Source: Microcaldota archaeon | GTDB taxonomy: Archaea; Micrarchaeota; Micrarchaeia; Anstonellales; Bilamarchaeaceae | Length of the DNA: 42,335 bases | NCBI GenBank assembly: GCA_016212505.1 | Contig: JACRGB010000037.1 | Span: 1 to 42,335, forward strand | Direction of reading: 5' to 3' | Shown here: piece after piece, positions 4,182-40,884 of the stretch | How positions within the stretch are numbered: the first letter of the stretch is position 1 | Layout of the letters: each line of letters starts with the position of its first letter | Translations under genes and position numbers: made by a program | Notes under the pieces: model-generated | Told to the model about the DNA's origin: nothing | The model's database searches: none | The model's input: only the letters and a program-made list of their open reading frames with translations

Positions 4182-4226
4182 CTTGAACGTTTTACGTTCA
4201 AGAGAGTCAAGAACGTTTCGTTCTTG
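4182..4226. repeat. Tandem hairpins overlapping the 3' end of atpB
   Basis: Two perfect hairpins lie side by side: CTTGAACGT-TTT-ACGTTCAAG (4182-4202) and CAAGAACG-TTT-CGTTCTTG (4208-4226). The second contains the last codons and the TGA stop of atpB, so the C-terminal residues RTKRS are encoded by it. The flanks AGTCAAGAA and TTCTTGCCATG recur, in reverse orientation, in the hairpin at 18259-18282. It may act in mRNA processing or termination between atpB and the next gene, or be an inserted palindromic element. Confidence 0.7.
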
Positions 4227-9851: not shown

Positions 9852-9928
9852 TCTCGAATCATTTCTTTTCGAGATTTCTCATCCGATTGGAATCTTTCTA
9901 TTCCAATACTGACAAGTTCTTCGAACTT
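9852..9928. repeat. Three-hairpin array across the atpI 3' end
   Basis: Three hairpins follow one another: TCTCGAA/TTCGAGA (9852-9874), ATTGGAAT/ATTCCAAT (886-893 with 900-907 of this block) and AAGTTC-TTC-GAACTT (9914-9928). The atpI stop codon TAG (9898-9900) lies at the second hairpin and the last coding residues lie in the third. Their position before atpK, whose product is needed in many copies, is consistent with mRNA processing or stabilisation. That role is inferred. Confidence 0.6.
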
Positions 9929-11820
9929 ATCATCGCGAACGGGCTAAACAAACTGTTCCCACCGTGCATAAATTTTGACCTAAATTCCACGATGTTAAGA
10001 CGTCCCCCCTGTATCAGCGATTCGAACATTGCAATGAAACAATTCAGTATATGCAAACCAATAAATAACGGAATTAAAAGAATTGCCATAAACCCCTGCT
10101 CTGGCAGCGGCACTAAAAACTCATTTAGCAGTTCCGCAATGACGACCCCGACTATCCCTATTGCTGCAATTCTTGCATAAGATAGGACATTTCCCACAAG
10201 GCCCGGGATCTCAATTATGCCGATAATTCCTTCGGTTGCCCCAATTACTATGATCGAGCCTACAATAAATACCAGCCCTGGTATGAGGAACGAAGTATGC
10301 GCTATTGCTGCCGAAAGGGCAAGGATTGCACCTATTTCAAGGCCTATCCAGGCCAATTTCCCGATCGAATGCTTGCGGTTATGATTCCACTCGTTAATTG
10401 CACCGAACAAAAACCCGAGCGCAAGGTGAATTAGGCCCACAACTACGGTTATTTCAACTAATGTAATTACGTTTTCTATTCTGTGCAAGCCAGAATATAA
10501 TGGCGCATGAAGTAACTCAATTCCAGTCCATTTTGTTATCAGTTCCGCAAGATGAAGGTGTGAGAGCCCGCCCCACTCATCAAAAATTATCCCGAAAAGT
10601 ATGGTCGGAAATGCGGAATAAAACCAGATCAGGGAAACGTTCCGCATGATCTCGCTTTTTTCGAACTTTTTCAAAAACCACTGTGCAATGAAAATCGAAA
10701 GTATCCCATACAGGACATCCCCAACAATCATACCATATATTATTGGAAGGGCGATAAAATATGCCATTGTCGGGTCGATTTCAAAGTAGTTTGGAAGGGA
10801 ATAATTTTTTGTTAAAAATTGGAAAGGAGAGGAAATTTTCGGGTTGTTAAATACAATTGGCGGATGGTCTTCATGGTTCATTTTCATGCTCTCTAGGGTT
10901 GCGCTAGTGTGGTATTGCTCAACAACCTTGGCCAGTTTATCATAATTTTCATCAACAATCCAGCCCTGTATTATGTATAGGGATTTTGAATTTGCAAACT
11001 TGCTTGATATTTCTGCCCGCGCTGTCCCCACTTCAAGGGAACTGATCAGTAATTTTACCTGCGCAGCATATTGCTTTGAAATGGTTTTCAGCTCGCTATT
11101 AGCATTTGCTATCCTTGATTTTGCCTCAACTATTTGGGAATTTATTTTTGCGTGTGTTTCTGCCGGCGAAGTTATTGAAGAATCTAGATCTATTGCACTA
11201 AATCCACTTTCTGCCAGCATTGAATCAATTGCAGCGTGGTTTTTCGCCCTAAAGACAATGAGTGTGTTTTCTGTGCCTGCTTTTGAAAGAACTGTAGTAT
11301 CATCTACTTTGGCTGCTTTTTGTTTTAGCAAAAGAAGGCTTTGGAGGTTTTGGCATTTACCCAGTCTATAATCCAATGTCCGAGATTTCAATTTACTAAA
11401 ATCAATTTCCTCAAATGCAAGGAGCTTTTTTACAAAGTCTGCTTTTGCCCCTAAGTCTTTTAGCAAAGAAGAATCATCTTCGATTTGCTTCGTAAGCGAT
11501 TTTATCCGGTTCTCAATAGCTGTGTTAAGGGTTTTTACCTGTGCTATTGCTTCATAAGGCTCCAAAAGTTTTGTTTCTTCGGTATTCTGCATGGCCGCTT
11601 TTCCGAGTTCCTGCTCCATTATTGCAAAAATGGCCCGCAATTTACCCAAATAAGCTGATAATTCATCAAAAGCAGGAAGTGGCCTTCCTTCATCAAGCCC
11701 CTCGTATCTGATCTTACTTATCTGTACCAGCCCGATTTCATGAAGGTCTTTGATGAGTTTCTCTACTTCTGCCTTTAGTACTATTATTCTGACCTTTCTC
11801 ATTTTCTTCGGTACGAACAT
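9898..11820 (-). CDS. atpI: A-type ATP synthase subunit I (membrane stator, a-subunit homologue)
   Basis: This stator subunit forms the ion half-channels against the K ring. The N-terminal cytoplasmic half begins MRKVRIIVLKAEVEKLIKDLHEIG, the family start, and has long coiled coils. From about residue 345 come the membrane helices, beginning FEIDPTMAYFIALPIIYGMIVGD, which matches the conserved 'fe.iDPT.~~~~~fp~~fGmm~gD' block. The late helices include VLSYARIAAIGIVGVVIAELLN, with the conserved Arg needed for ion translocation, and FRSKFMHGGNSLFSPF at the end. Length, 640 residues, is normal. The last codons lie in a hairpin array. The gap to atpH is about 100 nt and contains a possible internal TATA box (minus strand, GTTTATAACT near 11906). 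Confidence 0.96.
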   Translation of the reverse strand: MFVPKKMRKVRIIVLKAEVEKLIKDLHEIGLVQISKIRYEGLDEGRPLPAFDELSAYLGKLRAIFAIMEQELGKAAMQNTEETKLLEPYEAIAQVKTLNTAIENRIKSLTKQIEDDSSLLKDLGAKADFVKKLLAFEEIDFSKLKSRTLDYRLGKCQNLQSLLLLKQKAAKVDDTTVLSKAGTENTLIVFRAKNHAAIDSMLAESGFSAIDLDSSITSPAETHAKINSQIVEAKSRIANANSELKTISKQYAAQVKLLISSLEVGTARAEISSKFANSKSLYIIQGWIVDENYDKLAKVVEQYHTSATLESMKMNHEDHPPIVFNNPKISSPFQFLTKNYSLPNYFEIDPTMAYFIALPIIYGMIVGDVLYGILSIFIAQWFLKKFEKSEIMRNVSLIWFYSAFPTILFGIIFDEWGGLSHLHLAELITKWTGIELLHAPLYSGLHRIENVITLVEITVVVGLIHLALGFLFGAINEWNHNRKHSIGKLAWIGLEIGAILALSAAIAHTSFLIPGLVFIVGSIIVIGATEGIIGIIEIPGLVGNVLSYARIAAIGIVGVVIAELLNEFLVPLPEQGFMAILLIPLFIGLHILNCFIAMFESLIQGGRLNIVEFRSKFMHGGNSLFSPFAMISSKNLSVLE

Positions 11821-18210: not shown

Positions 18211-18238
18211 AATTTCACTTAATTTTTTTCATTATATT

Positions 18239-18390
18239 GGAATTTGCAAATTCCATGGCAAGAAACGCATTTGCGTTTCTTGACTGTCGTGGAGCGTTGC
18301 TCCATGGCAGGAAAGCCTTGCTTTCCTCACTGTCGCAAACGGATTGCCGTTTGCTCCACGCCAATGCTGAAAAATTTTGCAAATTTTTCA
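18239..18390. repeat. Array of six perfect hairpins between dph2 and the metalloprotease gene
   Basis: Six palindromes occur in 152 bp: GGAATTTGCAAATTCC (18239-18254); CAAGAAACGCA-TT-TGCGTTTCTTG (18259-18282); TGGAGC-GTT-GCTCCA (18290-18304); AGGAAAGC-CTT-GCTTTCCT (18309-18327); GCAAACGG-ATTG-CCGTTTGC (18335-18354); TGAAAAATTT-TGC-AAATTTTTCA (18368-18390). The separators repeat as well: CCATGGCA at 18253 and 18302, ACTGTCG at 18283 and 18329, so a unit of about 47 bp is duplicated. No reading frame or promoter explains it. Confidence 0.8.
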
Positions 18391-33103: not shown

Positions 33104-33486
33104 TGATCAATTCCTTACGAAATTGTGTGATATACCATATGTTGGATTAGACCGTTAGTAACTTCTGGCTGAAACGCTCGGTTTCCCTTGCGCCTTACAC
33201 CAAAGTCCTATCAAACGGATCTGCTATCCGTGGTATATGCTTCCTCGTTTTAAGAGTCGCTTCGACCTTAGATGCTTTCAGGTCTTATCGACGTGGCGCG
33301 TGGCTGCCCGGCAATGCATATTAACAACCGGTAGACTAGAGGCGCCGAATCTCCGTTCCTCTCGTACTCAGAGATCCTTTCTCTCAAGAAGCTACACTCC
33401 CAGGAGATACTACCGTACTGTCTCGCGACGTACTGAACCCAGCTCATGTGGGACTTTAATGGATGAACAACCCAACCCTTGGCCGC

Positions 33487-33563
33487 TTATAGACTTTTGA
33501 CTGATGAATACCTAATGCCTTTTGATGAAACTTTTGGCATTAATTTGTAGTCAATCAAAAGTT
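33487..33563 (-). other. BHB-type 23S rRNA intron in helix 91 loop (77 nt)
   Basis: In the transcript, exon GGUCGUGUAG is followed by bulge GAA, then intron helix ACUUUUGAUU paired with AGUCAAAAGU. The central 4-bp helix is GUAG/CUAU (one G-U), and bulge AAG follows it before CGGCC. Cutting after the second base of each bulge joins ...GUGUAGGA to GCGGCC..., giving a helix 91 hairpin GGUCG-UGUAGGAG-CGGCC with the same 8-nt loop length as in other archaea. A second internal hairpin (UAAUGCC/GGCAUUA) lies inside the intron. No homing endonuclease is encoded. Confidence 0.8.
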
Positions 33564-33620
33564 TCCTACACGACCAGGATGTCCCAAGCCGACAGCGATG
33601 TACCAAACCGCGGGGTCGAT

Positions 33621-33675
33621 AAGTACGCGAGTAGTTCTATTTGAATCTATTCAGAAACGACAGAACTACGCCGCT
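33621..33675 (-). other. BHB-type 23S rRNA intron in helix 89 region (55 nt)
   Basis: The central helix is exon GUAC with intron GUAC. Bulges are ACA and UUA. The intron side starts with GCG/CGC and a GUAGUUCU/AGAACUAC helix of 8 bp. Cutting after the second base of each bulge joins GAGAGUACAC to AUCGACCCCGCGGUUUGG, matching the universal pattern (E. coli GAGUUCAU-AUCGACGG, about positions 2477/2478). Near-canonical BHB geometry. Confidence 0.85.
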
Positions 33676-34202
33676 GTGTACTCTCACCCGCGACGAGCCT
33701 GTTACCTCCAGGGTAGCTTGTCTGACAGTTTGAATTCCCATCGAAAGAATTTCAAAGTTCGTTATACCCGACTTTCGTCTCTGCGTTCTACGCTTTTAAG
33801 AACACAGTCAGCCCAGCATTTGTTATTAACCCTCTACTCCCGATTTCTGACCGGGATGAGCTGAGCATTGGGCGCCCTTGTTTCTTTATCGAGGGCGTAC
33901 CGCCCCAGCCAAACTATCCACCTGACGCTGTTCTCTTTCGAGTAAGCGATACAAAATCTGCTAAGTGGTGTAACACTTTCGCCTATTTGCAACCCGGGAG
34001 CTGCAACATAACGGCTCCCACTTACGCTTGGTAGCAAACTTCGTACCACAACATCAGGCTATAGTAAAGCTCCATGGAGTCTTCGTTTCCCTCTGGGAGA
34101 TGCCGGCATCTTCACCGGCGAGTGATTTCACCAGGTCCTAGGTAGGGACAGTGGGAGTGTCGTTACGTCATTCATGCAAGCCGCCAATTAAGCGGCGAGG
34201 TA

Positions 34203-34343
34203 TTGCGTCAAGGCCATATTCAATTAATTTTAATCGAACAATGGCGAGGACTCTACGCGCTGTTTTGCGACTTGCTTTACAGAATAACTCTGTACGCGAC
34301 TCTCAAGGCATCCTCCATACAAAAGTATGAAACATGGCCTTGT
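34203..34343 (-). other. BHB-type 23S rRNA intron next to helix 71 (141 nt)
   Basis: In the transcript, exon GCGU pairs with intron ACGC as the 4-bp central helix. Bulges are AAA and AAU, the intron helix is CAAGGCCAU/AUGGCCUUG (9 bp) and the outer helix AGGU/ACCU. Cutting after the second bulge base joins AGGUAGCGUAA to UACCUCGCCGC, which matches the archaeal consensus GGUAGCGUA-R-UACCUUGCCGC (about E. coli 1938/1939). The intron interior has three hairpins and no protein-coding frame. Confidence 0.9.
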
Positions 34344-34354
34344 TTACGCTACCT

Positions 34355-34390
34355 GTCTCCTTTATTAAGAGCGTTCTGCTCCTCTTTTAT
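34355..34390 (-). other. BHB-like 23S rRNA intron between H69 and H71 (36 nt)
   Basis: Exon CUCU pairs with intron GGAG (4 bp, one G-U). Bulges are UAA and ACA, and the outer helix is ACC/GGU. Cutting after the second bulge base joins GACCCUCUUA to AGGUAGCG, restoring the universal CUUAAGGUAGCG (about E. coli 1927/1928). The intron holds a near-duplicate CUCUUAAUAAARGAG twice. The intron-side helix is less adjacent than in the others, so the BHB is relaxed. Confidence 0.75.
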
Positions 34391-34405
34391 TAAGAGGGTC
34401 AGAGT

Positions 34406-34453
34406 TAGGAGTTATAATTTTCAAACCCAAGACTGGGAACTGAAAACAATAAT
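34406..34453 (-). other. BHB-type 23S rRNA intron in the helix 69 loop (48 nt)
   Basis: Exon GGGG pairs with intron CUCC (one G-U) as the 4-bp central helix. Both bulges read UAA. The intron helix UUAU/AUAA follows directly, then UUUUC/GAAAA. Cutting after UA in each bulge joins GGGGGUA to ACUCUGACCCUC, giving helix 69 as GGGGG-UAACUCUGA-CCCUC. The stem shows a compensatory G-C for the A-U in Haloarcula. The insertion splits the loop that forms inter-subunit bridge B2a, about E. coli 1912/1913. Confidence 0.85.
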
Positions 34454-34766
34454 TACCCCCGCTCTTTACCAGCCCTTCTTCCGATTGAAATCGGCGTTCA
34501 GGTACTAGCAGTGAGCAGACGTCAGCCACCATACGCACCCTTTCGGGTCTGCGGTGACCTGTGTTTTTGGTAAACAGTCGCACTCCCCTTGTTACTAAGA
34601 CCTCCGCATTACTCATGCGAAGGCACCCCTTATCCCTAAGTTACAGGGCTAACTTGCCGAGTTCCCTTACCTAAGTTTCCCTGCCACATCTTAGCCTTTT
34701 CAGCTAGAGCACCTGTACTGGTTCTTGGTACGATTATGAAAGGTCGTTCCATTCTCCTGTACGATT

Positions 34767-34834
34767 GAGTTTCCAGTTTTCTGTTTCCGGTTTCCAGTTA
34801 CGTTACTGGGAACTCGAAACTCGAGACTGTAAAC
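34767..34834 (-). other. 23S rRNA expansion segment in the helix 58 region
   Basis: A low-complexity stretch on the minus strand repeats ACUGGAAAC, CGGAAAC and ACUGGAAAC and folds as GAGUUUC/GAAACUC with inner CCAGU/ACUGG. The region is variable in length in archaea. No BHB could be drawn that restores a recognisable consensus, so I regard it as an expansion, not an intron. Confidence 0.5.
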
Positions 34835-36472
34835 CCAATTTTCATGGGCCCCTGGATTCAATTTTGTTACCCCTACAAGTTTTGTCCGCTTCTCCTCACA
34901 ATGAGACTCCACGGAGTTACTCTTTTCAGACGGCTTGATGCCGCAAAACATATCCAAAGGCGTCAGAGAAATGGCCGCATTACTGCAAACCTACTTCCAT
35001 AGGACCGGAATATTAACCGGTTTCCCTAATTTCGACTAGTCGGAGTTACCTCAAGTCTTAGGATCGCCTAACCCTCAGCTGAAGAACGTGGCTGAGGAAT
35101 CCTTGCTCTATAAGATGTATGGAATTCTCGTCCATATTTGCTGCTACTAACATCAGGATATTCGTAACAGGCCGCTCCACACGTCGTTACCGACGTGCTT
35201 CGAGGCGACCCGTTCGCCCCCTTAACCAATGTTTTTTACATTGATGAGGTATCGGAAGCTGGTTTGAGCCCCGTGAATTTTCAGAGTCTGCACTCTCGAT
35301 CGGTCCGCTATTACGCGTTGTTTAAAGGGTGGCTGCTTCTAAGCCTACCTCCCGATTGTTTTAGAATGGAGACTCGTTCCAGATTAACACTTAACCAGCA
35401 TTTAGGGCCCTTAGCCTCATGTACGGTCGTTCCCGTAAGGGACCACAGACTTACTCCGTAATCCCGACTGCCTCCTTCTACGTAGATATAGCATTCGGAG
35501 TTTGAGAAGATGGCGACCCCTTTCGGAGCCAATCCGCCTAATCGGTGCTCTACCGCTATATCTTACTCCAGAGACGCTGTCCTGAGAGACATTTCAGAGG
35601 GAACCCGCTATCGCCGTGTTCGACAGGACTATCACCCCTACACCCAAGTCACCTAAGAGGAATATACCATCAATAGTTGCGGACCTCCATCATTCGTCAG
35701 AATGACTTCATCCTGCTCGGGCGTAGTTCACTACGGCTTCGGGTCTACTCAGAGTGACTGATCGCGAATTACCACGACATCCCTGGCCCTTGCGGGTTGC
35801 GGAATATTGCTTTCGCTTCGACTTTCGTCTCGCCACGCCAAATAACTCCCTGACTCTTGCTTCGAGAAGAAAGATTTGACACTGGTTAATCCGTGTCGGA
35901 ATTCCCGTTGCCAGAAACACCTACCACAGACCTGCCCTTTGATGCCAAACCATTCTGTAACCACTTAATTTCAGGTTCTTTTCACACTCATTCCTGAGTG
36001 CTTTTCAGCATTCGCTCGCGCTACTGATTCGCTATCGGTCTTATGCCTCATATTTAGATTTAGGGCTCGATAGCCCCATGTTCATGCCCCCTATCCAGAG
36101 GACACTACTCTTCTTGGATCGTTCCCTCGTGCTTCACTTACGAGACTGTTACTCGCTATGGTGTCGTATTCCAGCGGACTTCAGTTCACACAAAGGATAC
36201 TCCCCGCCACATCTACCACCTGGTTACCCAAATGGAATTCAGCTAGATCTAACCGGCTTTCACTCGCTGTTACTAACCGGATCACAATTGTTTTCTTTTC
36301 CACCCCCTACTAAGATGCTTCATTTCGGGGGGTTGCTACACATTACTGTGTTCAGACAGACCCCTGGATCAAAGACTGCGTGCGTCTACCCAGGGCGTTT
36401 CGCCGCTTGCCGCGTGTCCGTGCGGGCATAAGCCAAGCCATCCACTAAGTGGCGTGTATTACAGCATATGGT

Positions 36473-36720
36473 TTATTATTTTTATCACAGACGAATTTCT
36501 TCAAATTCGTCATTGTGTGAAATTCTTGCGAATTTCACACTTGTCAAGATCCTTAACAGATCTCAACATCTCCAGAATTATTAGACTCTAATTTTCTGAA
36601 TCTACTTTCCTGCTATCACTTCACACGCATGAATTTCTCTCCAAATGGAGAGAGACATAGGATACTCTAAGTAGATACATCATTGCACCCATCGAGAGAT
36701 GAGTACTCGTAGACTAAATA
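36473..36720 (-). other. Pre-23S leader with hairpins
   Basis: This 250-nt leader runs from the predicted start near 36720 to the mature 5' end. It has two perfect hairpins at 36490-36511 (GACGAATTT/AAATTCGTC) and 36515-36540 (GTGTGAAATTC/GAATTTCACAC). The processing-stem arm TTCCTGCTATC lies at 36607-36617 and the inner arm CTCCAGAATT at 36570-36579. Between the arms is a 27-nt extra hairpin (AGATTC/GAGTCT). No gene is seen here on either strand. Confidence 0.65.
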
Positions 36721-39918: not shown

Positions 39919-40884
39919 TTATCTCAATTTTATCTCCATTATTTCCTCTACTGTCTTTACCCTTGCAATGCTGTTCCTTATTGATGCTGCACTGGGAGAT
40001 CCGGAAACAAAATTTATTGCCTTTAATTTTACATCCTTTAACTCCGGCTCGCCGGCATAATTTCTGTGAAGCTCAAGATATTCAAGAAGCAATTCCATTT
40101 TCTCTTCAATTGTTTTTGGTTTTAAGTTAGAAAACATCTTCGGGTTACTCATTGCAGAGCGTGCAACCATAAAAGAATCACAAAACCCTTCTTTAACTAA
40201 CTTTTCACCTTCGCTCGCAGTGGTTATGTCTCCATTGCCAACAATTGGCACGTTACTTTCGGATTTTATAGCCTTTATCAGTTCCCAATCAGCAGATCCG
40301 GAATATCCTGCTCCTGCAGTTCGTCCGTGAATAATAATAAACGAAACTCCTGCTTGCTCGAGCTGCTTGCAAATTGCGAGAGTATCTGTAAAATTGTTTT
40401 TAATCCGGATTTTTACGCTAATTGGAATTTCATTATCGCTTATTTTCTCGATGGATTTTTTTATTGTATCGTAAATTCTATCGAATTTCCGCTGCTGAAA
40501 AATTTTTGCAAAATTTTTCATTTCCTTAATTGAATTAACGATCTTATCCGGGTGGTGGAGCAGTGCGCTTCCTCCACCACTGTTCATAGTCCTTGCTGAT
40601 GGGCAGCCGCAATTGAGGTTTAGCCACGAAATAAATGGAAATGCATCCACAATCCGCTTGGCAGCAAGTCCCATGTCTTTTGGGTCCTGACCAACTAACT
40701 GGACACCTATATTCTTCTCATCAGGATGCGCGTCAACTATTTTCGTTTTTTCCTCTTTATTTGCGATTGCGGTTGAATTAACTAAGGGAACGCAGGTTGC
40801 AACTGCGCCATATTTTTGGCAGAGTAAGCGAAATGGAAGATTAGAATAATTGTCGATTGGTGAAAGGAAATTCGAATAGACCAT
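39919..40884 (-). CDS. dus: tRNA-dihydrouridine synthase (Dus) with a hairpin-encoded insertion
   Basis: Flavoenzyme reducing uridines of tRNA to dihydrouridine. SPIDNYSNLPFRLLCQKYGA at the N-terminus, NLNCGCPS (catalytic Cys 94), ISVKIRIK, FIIIHGRTAGAGYSGSADWE and VPIVGNGDI are family motifs. Residues about 122-139 (KNFAKIFQQRKFDRIYDT) are extra. They lie between the helix after the catalytic loop and ISVKIR and are encoded by two hairpins (40473-40488 and 40496-40520). One of these has the same core as a hairpin near 18368. Length of 321 residues is therefore about 25 longer in this region than usual. The insertion keeps the frame. Confidence 0.94.
   Translation of the reverse strand: MVYSNFLSPIDNYSNLPFRLLCQKYGAVATCVPLVNSTAIANKEEKTKIVDAHPDEKNIGVQLVGQDPKDMGLAAKRIVDAFPFISWLNLNCGCPSARTMNSGGGSALLHHPDKIVNSIKEMKNFAKIFQQRKFDRIYDTIKKSIEKISDNEIPISVKIRIKNNFTDTLAICKQLEQAGVSFIIIHGRTAGAGYSGSADWELIKAIKSESNVPIVGNGDITTASEGEKLVKEGFCDSFMVARSAMSNPKMFSNLKPKTIEEKMELLLEYLELHRNYAGEPELKDVKLKAINFVSGSPSAASIRNSIARVKTVEEIMEIKLR
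40473..40520. repeat. Two hairpins inserted in the dus coding sequence
   Basis: AAATTC-TATC-GAATTT (40473-40488) and TGAAAAATTTT-TGC-AAAATTTTTCA (40496-40520). The second is GCTGAAAAATTT...AAATTTTTCA, the same core as at 18366-18390. Together they code for the extra segment of Dus. Confidence 0.7.

Follow-up and report, generated by a model that had tools for sequence, protein, structure and literature searches.

An in-frame two-hairpin palindromic element in an archaeal dihydrouridine synthase gene, with copies in other genes and genomes of its order

The dus gene and its insert

The window analysed here is a whole contig of 42,335 nucleotides from a Microcaldota archaeon (JACRGB010000037.1, assembly GCA_016212505.1), whose genome, called G000 below, comprises 1.48 Mb in 46 contigs and is about 90% complete. 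On its minus strand, at 39919-40884, lies dus, which encodes a tRNA-dihydrouridine synthase of 321 amino acids (Pfam PF01207, E=8.6e-55; PDB relatives DusB and DusC). The gene hosts an in-frame palindromic element at 40462-40520, also on the minus strand, matched at 75.8 bits by the covariance model described below. Read along the coding strand, hairpin A (TGAAAAATTTTGCAAAAATTTTTCA; 40496-40520) is followed by GC, hairpin B (AGCGGAAATTCGATAGAATTTACGAT; 40468-40493) and ACAA, so that two hairpins stand in tandem, as the original prediction had it; hairpin B has exact copies on contigs C25 and C27 of the host genome. The fold of the insert, computed for a 71-nt stretch, has a z score of -3.2, with none of 200 shuffled sequences folding as well, and the window has two occurrences of the hairpin core pattern, where shuffles lead one to expect 0.00.

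The element encodes approximately residues 122-141, MKNFAKIFQQRKFDRIYDTI. About 18 extra residues had been predicted; the excess over most congeners is about 25, of which about 20 are encoded by the element, and the remainder may belong to the native loop. Conservation of the segment in many Dus homologues would have refuted the original prediction, but it is not conserved: the homologues from the genus and the family that span the insertion point lack it, three partial matches having been left out of this judgement. No Dus relatives were found in viral contigs, and named genomes yielded a single, distant Dus match. The view that these residues belong natively to Dus or are typical of its lineage, and that their coding sequence is palindromic by chance, draws some support from the loop length at this point, which varies somewhat among homologues (one of them, L021, has three extra residues), but the absence of the segment in congeners and the recurrence of its nucleotides in unrelated genes and spacers speak against it, and an identical copy in a LysE gene refutes it, leaving it practically no probability.

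Alignment to solved Dus structures locates the insert precisely at the junction of a helix and the strand that follows it. An AlphaFold model agrees on this placement, at a low confidence (pLDDT of 54, and below 50 in the insert) that is due to only two sequences being alignable. In barrels of the Dus type, loops at such junctions are found opposite the active site, and the position of the insert fits a loop on that opposite face, in keeping with its being tolerated. The earlier suggestion that a surface loop makes the insert tolerable is thus backed as far as the helix-strand junction is concerned, exposure itself being what we infer from it. As part of the mobile-repeat explanation set out below, Dus very probably keeps its fold and has gained an unconserved loop between helix and strand, and the enzyme would still work.

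A dispersed element with conserved pairing

The genome search for the hairpin core that had been proposed as a check found the core of hairpin A at nine places in G000, against none for the reversed control, and these are normally followed by the GC linker, hairpin B and ATACAA. In full, the element spans about 57-62 nt: the linker joins hairpin A to hairpin B, and behind them an ATACAA tail enters A-rich DNA; the consensus begins with TGAA, GGAC or GCAC and ends with ATACAA. A covariance model, R1, built from 12 copies aligned over 62 columns, gave 56 matches in G000 at E<=0.01 (about 45 at E<=1e-4) and 21 in the congener G002; a few of these matches are one place counted on both strands.

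The stems differ between copies and their pairing does not. Hairpin A falls into subfamilies with the stems TGAAAAATTT, GGACAAATTT and GCACAAATTT, and hairpin B into subfamilies starting with ATTGG, ATGGT or AGCGG, pairing being preserved throughout. Across 61 distinct copies, 97.7% of the cells are paired and 17 of the 20 pairs have changed on both sides, with 168 cells showing such double-sided changes as opposed to 40 in shuffles; slid controls collapse. This alignment was fitted to the model, and an unfitted alignment of 12 sequences gives the same picture. Pairing may be kept while stems change because folded single strands are recognised or because one arm corrects the other.

The window holds further hairpins of this kind. 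A second copy of hairpin A had been noted at 18368-18390 and is real, although its 23 nt fall two bases short of the 25 nt in dus; the shared run of about 24 nt that had been claimed for the two does not hold, the longest stretch that they have exactly in common measuring 14 nt when both are read on the same strand, or 16 nt when they are read on opposite strands. It belongs to a composite intergenic copy on the minus strand (18230-18390), of which hairpin A with GCATTGG forms one end and hairpin B (TGGAATTTGCAAATTCCAATATAAT) the other, an array of other hairpins lying in between; the model matches it weakly at 18337-18390 (28.1 bits) and 18230-18282 (26.0 bits). Similar layouts occur at C27:24855-25012 and C2:32913-33031. 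A weak match of 34 bits at 9880-9932, minus strand, adjoining the 3' end of the gene for V-ATPase subunit I and overlapping it in part, is a possible degenerate copy.

The hairpins between A and B in the composite arrays are of a second family and stand at the same point, between ATTGG and TGGAAT, as if nested. This second family (CAAGAA..TTCTTG-ACTCT-CTTGAA..TTCAAG) also occurs in the window at 4183-4226 on the minus strand, where it overlaps the 3' end of the gene for V-ATPase subunit B and encodes the protein's last residues, ARTKRS, and the stop; similar pairs lie at six further places in a sampled 395 kb of G000. In the same sample, perfect hairpins with a stem of at least 8 number 187, where a single first-order Markov simulation gave 69; G000 is rich in short palindromes generally. 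The window also includes an archaeal LSU rRNA, matched at 33136-36470 on the minus strand over 3335 nt as against 2987 in the model, so that the gene may contain about 350 nt of additional sequence. Just past the 5' end of this gene, at 36490-36540, are the adjacent hairpins GACGAATTTCTTCAAATTCGTC and GTGTGAAATTCTTGCGAATTTCACAC.

Across the order, 37 of the 84 genomes surveyed contain copies, concentrated in the host's own family (f1) and in f5. This survey counted 43 copies in G000, and outside G000 the maximum is 23 copies per genome; most other families have none, and in f9 one genome has a single weak match. Such a patchy distribution is as expected for a mobile repeat. Although the coding fraction is about 0.89, roughly one copy in two falls between genes. 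Among copies past gene 3' ends, 9 are in sense and 11 in antisense orientation, which amounts to no preference, and tandem, divergent and convergent spacers carry copies in approximately the proportions of the background.

These data bear on whether the double hairpin has a function as a structured RNA or as a regulatory signal, such as a terminator, an mRNA stabiliser or a protein-binding site, with its pairing under selection and its copies in genes accidental. Strong covariation and the preference for spacers would both follow from such a role, but the copies favour neither an orientation nor a position relative to gene ends, they occur in coding sequences in both orientations, and their symmetry could equally stem from palindrome correction or the needs of mobility. 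Many genomes, moreover, do without them, and Rfam covariance models run against three loci with copies gave no match up to E=0.1. A terminator role in particular was rejected for the lack of orientation bias, and we consider an RNA or regulatory function improbable overall.

Copies inside other genes

The insert in dus has an exact counterpart in a gene for a LysE-type transporter, where an identical copy of 57 nt is read in frame as the same peptide of 19 residues, MKNFAKIFQQRKFDRIYDT, which is absent from a LysE homologue with 53% identity. Homologues of LysE and of the nucleotidyltransferase discussed below were not found within the host genus, and for this reason LysE was compared across the class. 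In PmbA/TldD, the in-frame copy amounts to exactly 20 amino acids, which are missing from all 14 congeners. An HGSNAT-like membrane acyltransferase has an in-frame copy before its last membrane segment, a HepT-like gene has one that is read antisense, and copies are located at the C-termini of RtcA, ribosomal protein L32e and a class II fumarase, the last of which terminates within the element. A nucleotidyltransferase-like gene, by contrast with these in-frame cases, is broken by its copy: hairpin A is two bases shorter and the flanking gene halves lie in different frames.

A second species, G002, has in-frame insertions of its own: in a DUF234 ATPase, in an MGMT-type gene, where the copy splits the Pfam domain, and in an intein of the release factor aRF1 (L126, G002:C10), where it lies within the homing-endonuclease part and is thus a selfish element nested in another. 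In a third species, G008 (L166, G008:C75), the HGSNAT loop in which G000 has the main element is occupied instead by an array of several other hairpins, in frame and about 200 nt in length, with a fold z score of -5.2. Copies in genes were recognised by the frame running through them, which overstates the in-frame fraction, and the evidence for empty sites comes from proteins only, in species about 45-69% identical.

With about 45 copies in the host genome, several of them in frame in unrelated genes, the proposal that palindromes have invaded archaeal genes much as they have in Rickettsia is supported. Two further explanations can be weighed against these copies. Archaea have bulge-helix-bulge introns, and the hairpins at the insertion would suit an intron or a similar sequence removed at the RNA level; the copies in Dus, LysE, PmbA and the HGSNAT-like and HepT-like genes, however, are in frame and free of stops, which excision would not need, and copies lie largely outside genes, making this very unlikely. 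That a repeat was misjoined into dus during assembly gains some ground from the fragmented, draft state of the genomes and from the repetitive nature of the copies. Yet in Dus, LysE, PmbA and the HGSNAT-like protein the halves flanking the copy belong to one protein, which excludes a misjoin at a shared repeat, and independent genomes give the same pattern, so that we assign an artefact a negligible probability.

Mode of spread and relation to known palindromic elements

Taken together, we favour, with a probability of roughly 85%, the interpretation that a short, palindromic repeat of two hairpins, mobile but non-autonomous, has multiplied in this archaeal order and that the insert in dus is one of its copies. 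Copies would land in genes and spacers in either orientation and would be retained chiefly in spacers, a minority persisting inside genes. There, survival would require a length that is a multiple of three and a frame free of stops, and the resulting peptides of about 20 residues would be tolerated in a permissive loop or at a terminus, with purifying selection clearing most other insertions into genes. The mobilising activity would be supplied in trans and act on hairpin-forming single strands.

Two negative results weigh against this interpretation. No target-site duplication was detected among 60 copies, whose flanks are as similar as mismatched flanks (means of 5.39 and 5.19), and the repeat around the copy in MGMT and the AARGACAAATT repeat around that in PmbA, considered as candidate duplications, are not general across copies. 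Hairpin A is most often preceded by the base A, and A-rich DNA follows ATACAA. A search of the 90% complete G000 for Y1 transposases of the IS200/IS605 type (PF01797) at E<=0.001 found none. From these observations we infer a hairpin element that is mobile but non-autonomous and is copied in trans. Viral contigs, considered as a source, contain no exact match to the strict element pattern.

The closest parallels are bacterial. Rickettsia palindromic elements (RPEs) are dispersed repeats, many of them in frame in unrelated protein genes with a compatible peptide (PMC10969869, PMC3733652), and comprise several families of about 150 bp (PMC10969869). The archaeal element is likewise dispersed in many copies per genome and in frame in several unrelated genes, whereas its length of about 57-62 nt, its two hairpins and its archaeal host set it apart from the RPE families as these are described. 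The Wolbachia elements (WPEs) are in-frame palindromic insertions that mostly introduce no premature stop, although one arose in one gene (PMC4224334), a case resembling the broken nucleotidyltransferase gene of G000; they are bacterial, and the regions listed measure about 170-840 nt (PMC4224334). Being shorter, two-hairpin and archaeal, the element is not classed with RPEs or WPEs, despite working alike.

REP and BIME sequences are also small hairpins in many copies and modular arrays (PMC2817692). REPs, however, lie outside genes and depend on an association with a Y1-type transposase (RAYT), of which G000 yielded none, and neither a GTAG nor a CGTC tag, found in REPs at one end of the palindrome, is in the archaeal consensus. 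In organelles, double-hairpin elements consist of two adjacent hairpins with changing stems and are dispersed and thought to be selfish; they are mitochondrial and mostly intergenic. By this general description, the archaeal element is alike in its two adjacent hairpins with changing stems. Archaeal MITEs are short, non-autonomous repeats of archaeal genomes (PMC10969869), from which the element differs in that its copies are not flanked by a target duplication and its ends do not form a terminal inverted repeat over the whole length, each hairpin being a palindrome of its own. A limited literature search found no description of such insertions in archaea, which does not imply their absence from the literature.

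More tentatively, at rather under even odds, these may be order-wide coding palindromes of archaea that originated independently of the bacterial ones and spread as folded single strands, with neither a known transposase nor target duplication, repeatedly giving unrelated proteins new loops. Protein-coding palindromes were called a unique but recurrent feature of Rickettsia in the title of Ogata et al. 2002, as cited in PMC10969869, and were later reported in Wolbachia. Their occurrence in an archaeal order shows that in a second domain of life, too, small palindromes can lengthen proteins by peptide segments time and again. Since the same genes carry copies in some of the many species and not in others, comparison can test the tolerance, the decay and the possible recruitment of these inserts.
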